From: Candidatus Kerfeldbacteria bacterium
GTDB taxonomy: Bacteria > Patescibacteriota > Patescibacteriia > UBA9570
Direction: 5' to 3'
Length of the DNA: 41,739 nucleotides
Assembly: GCA_016182495.1 (NCBI GenBank)
Contig: JACPGK010000001.1
Location: 1-41,739 of the forward strand
Below the pieces are notes generated by a model. That model did not search any database, was not told the origin of the DNA, and saw nothing but the letters and a program-made list of their open reading frames with translations. A program made the position numbers and the translations under genes. Shown piece by piece: positions 151 to 5,804 of this stretch. Numbering within the stretch: position 1 is the first letter of the stretch; the number at the start of each line of letters is the position of its first letter.

Positions 151-179
151 TTGACAATAACCGACCACTACGCTATCAT
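151..179 (+). promoter_or_regulatory. Strong promoter of the tRNA-Asn leader
   Basis: TTGACA (151-156), a 17-base spacer and TATCAT (174-179) form a near-consensus housekeeping promoter. Transcription would start near 186, only about 4 bases before the ATG at 190. The leader ORF would therefore be read from an almost leaderless transcript, as for several other genes in this window. Confidence 0.75.
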
Positions 180-189
180 TCAATTAGGT

Positions 190-249
190 ATGCATTGCTA
201 CTGCAATAATAATTTGAATCACAATCCAAACCAGCACGCGGCTGGCTGA
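190..249 (+). CDS. Asparagine-rich leader peptide upstream of tRNA-Asn
   Basis: This 19-codon ORF reads MHCYCNNNLNHNPNQHAAG and stops with TGA at 247-249. Six of its 19 codons are Asn: AAT at 205-213 in a run of three, then AAT 217, AAT 223 and AAC 229. It starts a few bases after the inferred transcription start and overlaps the first two segments of a hairpin series ending in a terminator, directly upstream of tRNA-Asn(GTT). This is the architecture of an attenuator leader peptide such as those of his, trp or phe operons, in which a ribosome stalled on scarce aminoacyl-tRNA decides which hairpin forms. Its role is inferred from layout only; translation is not shown. Confidence 0.6.
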   Translation: MHCYCNNNLNHNPNQHAAG

Positions 250-292
250 TTCACTTATTCTAGATTGCATCTTGCATATACACACAGCCAGC
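231..292 (+). promoter_or_regulatory. Competing hairpins (anti-antiterminator and antiterminator)
   Basis: Segment 1 CCAGC (231-235) pairs with GCTGG (241-245) across a 5-base loop. Segment 2 GCTGGCTG (241-248) pairs without mismatch over 8 bp with segment 3 CAGCCAGC (285-292). Segment 3 also supplies the left arm of the terminator (287-293). The 1:2, 2:3 and 3:4 pairings are therefore mutually exclusive. Segment 1 lies inside the leader ORF just after its Asn codons, and segment 2 ends within the stop codon, which is the geometry expected of ribosome-mediated attenuation. Confidence 0.6.
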
Positions 293-314
293 GTTCCCGC
301 TGGCCGCGTTTTTT
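287..314 (+). terminator. Rho-independent terminator before tRNA-Asn
   Basis: GCCAGCG (287-293) and CGCTGGC (298-304) form a perfect 7-bp GC-rich stem with a TTCC loop. After CGCG comes a run of six T (309-314). It lies 13 bases before the first base of tRNA-Asn and after the leader ORF. No promoter is visible between terminator and tRNA, so the tRNA would be transcribed by read-through of this terminator. Confidence 0.75.
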
Positions 315-327
315 ATTTAGAAACTCT

Positions 328-403
328 TCTGGGATAGTTGAGCTGGTACAACGCTGCCCTGTTAAGGTGGATATCGCAGGTTCGAATCCTGCTCCCAGAG
401 CCA
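328..403 (+). tRNA. tRNA-Asn (anticodon GTT)
   Basis: A complete cloverleaf folds by eye. The acceptor stem TCTGGGA (328-334) pairs perfectly with TCCCAGA (393-399). The D stem is GTTG/CAAC (337-340, 349-352). The anticodon stem is 354-358/366-370 with loop CTGTTAA, giving anticodon GTT at 361-363. The T stem is GCAGG/CCTGC with loop TTCGAAT. The discriminator is G400 and CCA (401-403) is encoded. It sits directly behind the attenuator-like leader and has no promoter of its own that I can see. Confidence 0.95.
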
Positions 404-2627: not shown

Positions 2628-5600
2628 TTAGCGAAAATCCGAACGCTGAATTTCGCAATAACGACAATCACCACACATGCTATCGGCTGAAAAATCTAAA
2701 AAGGCCAAGCTAGTAATGGCATCGTACACCCGCCGGATTTCATCACGTATGGTAGTAATGGCATCATCGCTAAAGATAAATTGTTTCCGAATAAACTGAC
2801 CAGTGTGTTTGCTGGGTTGAATAAAATGCACTTCCCCCGATATCGCCGTATAGCCAAATTGTTTGGCGCCATCGCATAATAATTTATAAAACAACAATTG
2901 GCGATAATACGCTCCGGTCGGGCTCAACTGTGAGGCTTTATTATCAGAATTACCGGTTTTATAATCTACTACCTGAACCGTTTTATCAGCTTCAGATACT
3001 ATCTCGATGCGATCAATTTTTCCTACCAGTGGTACATGGTCAATCATTACATTGTAATTGGTAAAATCTTTTTCCACTATTAACGGCCGTAAAAAATCTT
3101 TATGATACTGTTTGTAATAGGCCGTTAAAATTATTTTACCAAAGGCTAGAGTATCGCGTTGCTGTTTGGTACTCAATACTTGTCGCTGCAGCACTTGGGT
3201 AAACTGTTCAATCAACCAGCGCCCTGGTGGTACTTTACCTTGCTCGGCAGTAGTACTAGCCAGCCGCCGTAAGGCTTCGTGCACAGCCGTTCCAAATGAA
3301 AAGGCGCGCGTATTTACTTCTGGCACGTGCAGTAAATGACGGTAATAAAATTGGCGCGGACATTCCAAATACGTATTCAAATGGGTAGCACTCAAAGCAT
3401 AGTCACGCACCATAGCAGCTACATAATCACGCTCGGCCACAGTGGTAGTTGCAGCTGGCACAAACTGAAGGCTGGTATGTAACCGCTCCACCACGGCTTG
3501 TTCAACATCAGTAGTATCAATAGCTTGAATGCAATCAGGGGATAATTCTTGCACAAAAATAGCTGGCATGGTAGTGCGGCTACTGCCATAGTTTTTGGCA
3601 TAGGTAATATATACCTGCTGTTTGGCACGAGTGAGGGCGACATAAAATAACCGACGTTCATCTTCGTTACGCATCAATTTTTCTAGACCCCGTTCCACTT
3701 GTAAAATACCAGACGGCAGTTTAATTTTGGCACGGTCGGGCACATTCCCCCAATGCCGGTCAATACATTTCATAATAAACACATGCTCAAATTCTAAACC
3801 TTTAGCCCGGTGAGCAGTGAGTAATTGCACAGCTGCCCGTTGGCTGGGCAAAGTTTGTTCTGGAATGGCCAGGGCATGCTGCTTTAATAAGCTGATATAC
3901 TCAACAAACTGTTCAGGTGTAACATCTGGTTGCTGGCGGTTCAAACCGCGTACCTCTGCTAACCAACTATTCAACCGATTCAATAACTCCACAGCATTCG
4001 GCTGCTGCATGATCCAATGTACAATGCCAGCCTCGTTAAGCAACTGGTCCATAAAATCAAGCAAGGCACTATGTACACTATTTTTTCGCCACTGCACTAA
4101 CTGCTTAGCCAGGTTTAAAAATGGGGTTGGCCGGGTAATACCAGCCGCGGTTAATTGATCAACTGAATTGATTAACTCAAATAAATTAATTTTGTGTTGA
4201 TAACTGTGCCGCACTAACCGCGTTAGAGCTAATGGTTCGAATCCCCACCATTGAGCATGTAATAATTGAAACAAATCGGCTTCGTTATGTGGCGTTCCTA
4301 ACCAATGCAGTAACGCCATCAGTTGTTGTATCAGTGGATCGTGTAATACATTACGACCAGCCGCCACTTGAAATGGAATATTTAATTTTGTCAGCCACTG
4401 CATTAATTCATGCACATCGGCATTATTGCGATAAATAATGGCAATATCATTGGCCAATATACCCTGCTGTACTAGCTGCTGCACTTGTCGGCTAATCCAA
4501 AATAATTCGGTGCTGGCATCATCAAATTCACCCACGGCTATAGGCTGACTGGTTAATTGTCGCGCCGCGGTGAGTTGTTGTTGAATTTGCGGTAACACCG
4601 CGCTTAAACTGTACTGATTATGGCCAATCACTGATTCGGCGGCAGTGAGAATGGTTTGCTGACTGCGATAGTTATCTTGTAAAGAAATAATTTTTGTATC
4701 ACTGCCGTATAACTGATAAAAAAATAAAATATTCTCTAGCGAAGCACCTTGAAAACGGTAAATTGACTGACGATCATCGCCCACCACAAAAATATTTGGC
4801 TGTTCTACAGCACTGCCTAATAACCGAACAATTTCATTTTGGGCACCGTTAGTATCTTGGTACTCATCCACCAAAATATATTGATACAATTCTTGATACT
4901 CGGCTAGTAAAGCAGGGTTATCCTGCCAAGCCTTCACCACAAACAGCAGCATATCTTCGTAATCATATCGTCCGCGTTGGTGTAGCTGTGCCTGATAGCG
5001 CTGGTACACCTCGGTAAGGGCTTGTTGCTTGAGTATATTTTTTAACAGTGTTTGATAAAAACTCTTGATTTCTCGATGCAAGGTGACACAACTATCAACA
5101 CTGGGTGGATAATATTTAAACAAACTTAACACATCTTGCAGCAAGGCGCTGGGGTGTTTGGCAGTGGTTAATTTTTTTTCTAGTTTGGTGCAATCAGCCA
5201 AAGTAATACTACGAGCTGGGCATTCAATGAATTTGGTCAGTACCGCACCATACTGTTGCTGAAATTGCGTCACATCGTGTAATAACCGCTGATATTTTTC
5301 GACAGTAATATTTTCTCGTTTCAAGGTTTGAATGGCGCGCGATAAATCGCTAATGTAATAGTACGGAGCGGCAAATGGCTTCAACACACTATCAGTTGGC
5401 AAGGCATCGAGCACTTCTCTGAATACAGATATTCGTTCAATATCGCTCAATGGTGCTAAATCATAAGCGAATAAAAACTGTTCGGGATGATCCTGAATCA
5501 CTTCATTACAAAAAGAATGGAAGGTATGAATTTTAACATAGTAGGCTGGCTGTCCAATCATAGCCAACAAGCGTTGGCGCATGGCTGTTACCCCAGTTTC

Positions 5601-5804
5601 GGTAAAGGTGAGGCATAAAATATTACTTGGCTCCAAATCAGTGGTTTGCAATAACCGAGCAATGCGCAAGGCAATAATTTGGGTTTTGCCAGTACCAGCG
5701 CCGGCCAATACAATAAAAGGACCAGTATTGTGATTCACGGCGGCCCGCTGGGCTGAATTTAATAATTGATAGTGAACGGCAAAATCGCCGCTGGCTTTAG
5801 GCAT
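2628..5804 (-). CDS. UvrD/AddA-type helicase fused to a RecB-family nuclease
   Basis: This 1,058-residue superfamily 1A helicase-nuclease probably processes DNA ends or damaged DNA. Walker A is GAGTGKT (35-41). VDEYQDT is motif II, GDDRQSIYRFQGA motif III, NYRSQQ motif IV, TAHRAKGLEFE motif V and RRLFYVALTRAK motif VI. The C-terminal 250 residues hold a PD-(D/E)XK nuclease: LNTYLECPRQFYYR, then VVDYKTGN with the catalytic D and K. A terminal CGDCRYC cluster (C1044, C1047, C1050) with the Cys of ECPRQF could hold an Fe-S cluster as in AddB. The combination resembles AddAB functions merged in one chain. The start overlaps the stop of the upstream small gene by 8 bases, so translation is probably coupled. 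Confidence 0.92.
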   Translation of the reverse strand: MPKASGDFAVHYQLLNSAQRAAVNHNTGPFIVLAGAGTGKTQIIALRIARLLQTTDLEPSNILCLTFTETGVTAMRQRLLAMIGQPAYYVKIHTFHSFCNEVIQDHPEQFLFAYDLAPLSDIERISVFREVLDALPTDSVLKPFAAPYYYISDLSRAIQTLKRENITVEKYQRLLHDVTQFQQQYGAVLTKFIECPARSITLADCTKLEKKLTTAKHPSALLQDVLSLFKYYPPSVDSCVTLHREIKSFYQTLLKNILKQQALTEVYQRYQAQLHQRGRYDYEDMLLFVVKAWQDNPALLAEYQELYQYILVDEYQDTNGAQNEIVRLLGSAVEQPNIFVVGDDRQSIYRFQGASLENILFFYQLYGSDTKIISLQDNYRSQQTILTAAESVIGHNQYSLSAVLPQIQQQLTAARQLTSQPIAVGEFDDASTELFWISRQVQQLVQQGILANDIAIIYRNNADVHELMQWLTKLNIPFQVAAGRNVLHDPLIQQLMALLHWLGTPHNEADLFQLLHAQWWGFEPLALTRLVRHSYQHKINLFELINSVDQLTAAGITRPTPFLNLAKQLVQWRKNSVHSALLDFMDQLLNEAGIVHWIMQQPNAVELLNRLNSWLAEVRGLNRQQPDVTPEQFVEYISLLKQHALAIPEQTLPSQRAAVQLLTAHRAKGLEFEHVFIMKCIDRHWGNVPDRAKIKLPSGILQVERGLEKLMRNEDERRLFYVALTRAKQQVYITYAKNYGSSRTTMPAIFVQELSPDCIQAIDTTDVEQAVVERLHTSLQFVPAATTTVAERDYVAAMVRDYALSATHLNTYLECPRQFYYRHLLHVPEVNTRAFSFGTAVHEALRRLASTTAEQGKVPPGRWLIEQFTQVLQRQVLSTKQQRDTLAFGKIILTAYYKQYHKDFLRPLIVEKDFTNYNVMIDHVPLVGKIDRIEIVSEADKTVQVVDYKTGNSDNKASQLSPTGAYYRQLLFYKLLCDGAKQFGYTAISGEVHFIQPSKHTGQFIRKQFIFSDDAITTIRDEIRRVYDAITSLAFLDFSADSMCGDCRYCEIQRSDFR

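Follow-up and report, generated by a model that had tools for sequence, protein, structure and literature searches.

A predicted leader-peptide attenuator upstream of a tRNA-Asn gene and its conservation in a bacterial class of small genomes

Classical leader-peptide attenuators control biosynthetic operons (trp, his, thr, ilv, and leu), and pheST is an example of a synthetase gene placed under the same type of regulation. T-box riboswitches bind uncharged tRNA directly. The levels of bacterial tRNAs themselves are usually attributed to growth-rate control and gene copy number. The theory of leader-peptide attenuation has been worked out (PMC1183508), and this form of control was also proposed for hisS of bacilli (PMC2965389) and for cysS (uORFC-8-2; PMC8632094). 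For the 41,739-nt stretch of DNA analyzed here (the window), a previous sequence-only reading proposed that a tRNA-Asn gene is attenuated through its own cognate codons and knew of no such case. In agreement with this, a search of the open-access full-text literature yielded no account of leader-peptide attenuation acting on a tRNA gene.

The putative attenuator lies entirely on the forward strand and begins with a sigma-70-type promoter (151 to 179), in which TTGACA (151 to 156) and TATCAT (174 to 179) are separated by 17 nt. With 11 of 12 matches, it was the best site of the region in a consensus scan. The leader ORF (positions 190 to 249; ATG at 190, TGA at 249) comprises 19 codons, including six for Asn, and would encode MHCYCNNNLNHNPNQHAAG. 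Given that its ATG is located 10 nt past the −10 box, the mRNA is predicted to begin only about 4 nt before the ATG, making the leader nearly leaderless, and a clear Shine-Dalgarno sequence is absent. Segment 1 (CCAGC, 231 to 235) pairs with 241 to 245, i.e., with part of segment 2 (GCTGGCTG, 241 to 248), which overlaps the last leader codons and the stop codon and can alternatively pair with segment 3 (CAGCCAGC, 285 to 292). Segment 3, the antiterminator partner, in turn overlaps the 5′ arm of an intrinsic terminator (287 to 314; stem 287 to 293/298 to 304), beyond which the tRNA-Asn(GTT) gene (328 to 403) carries an encoded CCA and a D arm of the second type (GGTACAACGC). The coordinates initially assigned to the promoter and the tRNA gene, and the sequence initially given for the ORF, were all correct, and the three mutually exclusive pairings (231 to 235/241 to 245, 241 to 248/285 to 292, and 287 to 293/298 to 304) are exact complements, as had been claimed. 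The stem and the T6 tract (309 to 314) of the terminator were confirmed as well, with CGCG separating the two. This 4-nt gap makes the terminator slightly off-canonical and counts against the attenuator reading, as does the interruption of the Asn run (NNNLNHNPN). A consensus scan of the forward strand from 180 to 403 revealed no second promoter-like site, consistent with the earlier observation that none was visible before tRNA-Asn. The leader RNA folds more stably than all 200 of 200 dinucleotide shuffles (z −3.2). The locus was also considered as a T-box riboswitch (stem I, specifier loop, T-box antiterminator), a candidate that was rejected when an Rfam scan of the window at gathering thresholds matched tRNA only. 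Directly past the tRNA-Asn gene, on the minus strand, the 455 to 2359 interval contains an XRE-type regulator, a second frame, and then an adenine-specific-type DNA methyltransferase, possibly forming a mobile element at tRNA-Asn. Further along the same strand (2628 to 5804) is a UvrD/PcrA-like helicase whose C terminus weakly matches a Cas4-like nuclease, an architecture of the AddAB/RecB type.

The tRNA-Asn genes of relatives were then searched and the DNA upstream of them was compared, the source genome of the window being 1.3 Mb (96% complete) and those of the relatives roughly 0.4 to 2 Mb, sizes that suggest a CPR/Patescibacteria-like group. Two sequence types were distinguished, i.e., that of the window (D arm AGTT..GGTASAAC; variable stretch, e.g., ATATC or ATGTT) and a canonical type (D arm AGC..GGTAGAGC/GGTAGCGC; variable stretch mostly TGGTC). 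The window type occurs in 57 of the 381 sampled genomes of the class, plus G009, which was found via its tRNA. All 58 of these genomes, which belong to 21 families, have a short Asn-rich ORF behind its own promoter and, between this ORF and the structural gene, an intrinsic terminator, as in known attenuators; in one locus (G169; L099) the terminator stretch is masked by N. Fifty-five of the leaders were recovered by an automatic scan and two (G003 and G169) were read by eye, as the tRNA is truncated at a contig end or lies beside masked bases; the last is that of G677. Each of the 55 aligned leaders has a terminator, located either by script or by visual inspection, as do L109 and L173. The latter locus (in G677) had been considered an exception, but its leader is present about 1 kb farther upstream, where it precedes a tRNA-Asn copy split by a palindromic insert. 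Leader ORFs range from 13 to 24 codons, contain a run of Asn codons, and are almost leaderless. The same promoter precedes most of the 55, with the ATG 5 to 12 nt past the −10 box (median, 9), which would place the start of translation at the predicted 5′ end or no more than a few nucleotides from it. In nearly all 55 leaders, the stop codon precedes the terminator arm by 16 to 52 nt.

The leader peptides (for instance, MRYKRNNNNNNNNRVTTR, MKSLNNNLNNNNA, MTYFEFSSLNNNNNNRP, and MIFAKTVNNSVNFINRIDGR) have diverged in sequence, and their Asn residues are retained through synonymous AAT and AAC codons (235 and 88, respectively), with a mean of 5.9 Asn codons in 17-residue peptides. In the sister species G085 and G612, the peptide is identical and the genes differ by synonymous AAT/AAC and TTG/TTA changes. 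It is mainly the 58 relatives, sharing the layout and diverged in sequence, that exclude a chance origin of the window layout. A lack of conservation of the ORF or the stems would have contradicted the original proposal, but the 58 loci of the same type have all kept the leader ORF with its Asn run, the terminator, and the complementarity that forms the antiterminator. Asp codons occur within the Asn runs of L145, L147, L181, L172, and L176 (NNDNNDNN), reflecting either drift or sensing of Asp as well. At seven loci (L129, L134, L141, L143, L177, L180, and L183), fragments resembling tRNA 5′ ends (e.g., TCCGGGATAGTT) lie between the terminator and tRNA-Asn, accompanied by palindromic GC-rich DNA of the kind that splits the L173 tRNA-Asn copy. 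These fragments and palindromes likely represent a small mobile repeat inserted into tRNA-Asn genes.

The capacity of the leaders to switch was evaluated by pairing and folding calculations. Taken from the last clustered Asn codon onward, the segment following the Asn run pairs with the 5′ arm of its own terminator at −14.2 kcal/mol across the 55 leaders, compared to −8.5 kcal/mol (SD, 0.35) with swapped partners, and none of 20,000 partner permutations matched the observed mean, a control that is conservative because the members are related. Restricting the test to the sequence after the stop codon left a weak signal (median rank of the own partner, 8 of 55), since segment 2 often overlaps the last codons. 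The switch itself was modeled at equilibrium, not kinetically, by masking the RNA covered by the ribosome (A-site codon plus 12 nt) and folding the remainder. When the ribosome occupied the first Asn codon, upstream RNA sequestered the 5′ arm of the terminator in 55/55 leaders before the 3′ arm was made, and the median probability of the terminator, P(terminator), was 0.007. With the ribosome at the stop codon, the arm was sequestered in only 2/55 and the median P(terminator) rose to 0.976. Ribosome position on Asn codons versus the stop codon thus sets mutually exclusive antiterminator and terminator structures in these computations. P(terminator) fell below 0.5 in 40 of the 55 real leaders versus 4% of those with dinucleotide-shuffled spacers. 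In the other 15 it exceeded 0.5 even when the first Asn codon was occupied, which counts against the attenuator reading and requires the assumption that the antiterminator takes kinetic precedence in these leaders. For the window, P(terminator) with the ribosome on Asn codons dropped only to 0.09 if the folded stretch ended with the stem and only to about 0.5 if it reached into the T-run, a further point against this reading; with the ribosome at the stop codon it was 0.99.

Taken from sequence and modeling, the window region is very probably a ribosome-mediated (leader-peptide) transcription attenuator with the tRNA-Asn gene as its output. Transcription would start at about 186 and a ribosome would enter the nearly leaderless ORF immediately, a start that would couple it tightly to the polymerase. 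When charged Asn-tRNA is scarce, the ribosome would stall in the Asn run and segments 2 and 3 would pair, blocking the terminator and letting the polymerase read into tRNA-Asn (and into asnS in a few relatives). A ribosome that reaches the stop codon would instead block the antiterminator, and the terminator would form. Additional tRNA-Asn would relieve the stall, so that the supply of Asn-tRNA would be under negative feedback. We infer from this architecture that the ORF is translated, that ribosomes stall and the polymerase reads through, and that the response runs in this direction. The leader would sense charged Asn-tRNA, and shortages of Asn, AsnRS, or tRNA-Asn would be indistinguishable to it. 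Because extra tRNA is useful only if tRNA is limiting, the arrangement points to correction of tRNA supply, supplemented by AsnRS in the five genomes that have asnS behind the tRNA.

The leader is specific to this type of tRNA gene. None of 43 other tRNA-Asn genes has an Asn leader, nor does the second, canonical tRNA-Asn of the source genome (C8:1372-1444, minus strand). In that genome, which counts 47 tRNAs with the window gene and this plain second tRNA-Asn, a cognate leader with a terminator is absent from the other 45, and in G154 no cognate leader was found on the 29 others of 30 tRNAs. The leader is also absent from 88 viral contigs with a similar tRNA-Asn and, outside the class, from tRNA-Asn genes resembling type 2 (L110, L124, and L125), in a phylum thinly sampled there. 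An exact-pattern search of genome contigs with a leader 18-mer returned chance matches only. The analysis establishes the anatomy, its conservation, and its specificity for one tRNA type, and shows that the switch is thermodynamically feasible. Since a cognate leader was seen for Asn only among the tRNAs examined, the question arises of what is special about asparagine here.

The homeostatic loop originally proposed agrees with the conservation and the modeled switch but requires amendment, as the attenuated gene is one of two tRNA-Asn genes in the source genome and the loop is consequently not the sole supply there. A canonical tRNA-Asn with a plain promoter is present in this genome and in many others, and the attenuated copy differs from it in the D arm and the variable loop. 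Both observations would fit an emergency spare that stays off unless the cell loses its constitutive tRNA-Asn (e.g., to an anticodon nuclease). This explanation, which disputes the purpose of the attenuator and leaves its mechanism identical, is the most serious rival, yet we consider it unlikely given the genomes in which the attenuated gene seems to serve routine translation. A relaxed anticodon and T-arm pattern was applied to 21 genomes selected for giving no clear second tRNA-Asn with the canonical pattern. In 18 of them it detected the attenuated tRNA-Asn only, whereas tRNA-Lys and tRNA-Ile were found as controls. They include G418, G434, and G109 (100% complete) and G154, G402, G450, G601, and G652 (99%), and at least a dozen genomes of at least 96% completeness showed no other GTT tRNA by this pattern. 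From these sequences, the attenuated gene is likely the sole tRNA-Asn in those genomes. A tRNA gene that is interrupted or strongly diverged could escape the relaxed pattern, and the Rfam list of G154 (L245 to L274; single contig, 99% complete) is incomplete, with 30 tRNAs but none for Gly, Cys, Phe, or Pro, such that interrupted or divergent tRNA genes are likely in this genome; for both reasons, sole-copy status falls short of proof. With this in mind, we favor as probable a closed homeostatic loop, operating class-wide, in which a tRNA-Asn gene that is apparently the sole copy in many species is autoregulated via its own codons.

The real target could alternatively be asnS, in an ordinary synthetase attenuator with tRNA-Asn as a passenger. 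Indeed, asnS lies 43 to 122 nt past tRNA-Asn in four genomes (G137, G643, G614, and G677; loci L097, L145, L147, and L173) and, in G135, about 130 nt past a tRNA-Asn preceded by a leader of its own, giving five genomes in which an Asn leader is followed by an apparent operon of tRNA-Asn and asnS (the four loci above and L386). The synthetase-operon class fits these five relatives only and was rejected for the window. At most loci, no asnS was found behind tRNA-Asn within the stretch examined, and asnS genes located apart from tRNA-Asn, including others of the same clade and the source genome's own on another contig, have no leader. An intrinsic terminator even follows tRNA-Asn immediately in 12 of 56 loci. 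Because asnS is mostly elsewhere and has no leader when separate, the leader, judged by its distribution, tracks tRNA-Asn rather than asnS, which renders asnS improbable as the real target. The earlier view of tRNA-Asn as the controlled gene stands and is amended for the few relatives in which the transcript is predicted to extend into asnS. AsnRS scored above the cut-off in 45 of 51 class genomes tested, and Asn-tRNA is thus probably made directly in most of them.

Two further explanations are very improbable. The terminated leader itself, an RNA of about 130 nt, could be the product, as a small RNA or a trans-acting peptide with a neighboring tRNA-Asn that is incidental; trans-acting leader products such as peTrpL (PMC7298713) set a precedent, but here peptide and RNA have strongly diverged while Asn content and cis-complementarity persist, and linkage to a single tRNA type is strict. 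An accidental ORF, with the hairpin ending an upstream gene and tRNA-Asn expressed by read-through or a cryptic promoter, would suit the coding frame that enters the window at its left edge and ends at 135, intergenic terminators being ordinary, but the promoter sits between that gene and the terminator, the order of promoter, Asn ORF, and terminator is kept in relatives despite unrelated upstream sequence, and the complementarity is partner-specific.

If the attenuator reading is true, gene-specific feedback via the decoding of codons would add a new principle by which the level of an individual tRNA is set, and leader-peptide attenuation would extend to small-genome bacteria that are mostly uncultured and whose leader mRNAs are predicted to be nearly leaderless. 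The Asn leader may also offer a compact natural sensor of Asn-tRNA charging. T-box riboswitches likewise tie a terminator/antiterminator switch to tRNA charging, whereas here Rfam detects no T-box and the conserved sensor is an Asn run whose translation is predicted. Like the synthetase attenuators (pheST; hisS, PMC2965389; cysS, PMC8632094), the Asn leader would sense the charging of one tRNA and raise the means of charging, and in five relatives asnS does follow tRNA-Asn; unlike them, it has the tRNA as conserved first gene and goes with the tRNA, not with asnS. As in the trp, his, thr, ilv, and leu attenuators, a leader ORF with regulatory codons precedes segments 1 to 4, and ribosome position would choose between terminator and antiterminator; here, however, the output is a tRNA gene instead of an enzyme operon, and the leader ORFs start almost at the predicted transcription start. 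The mechanism is therefore a known one, and what is new, as far as we could find, is its target, its lineage, and a loop whose output is the tRNA part of the very molecule that is sensed.
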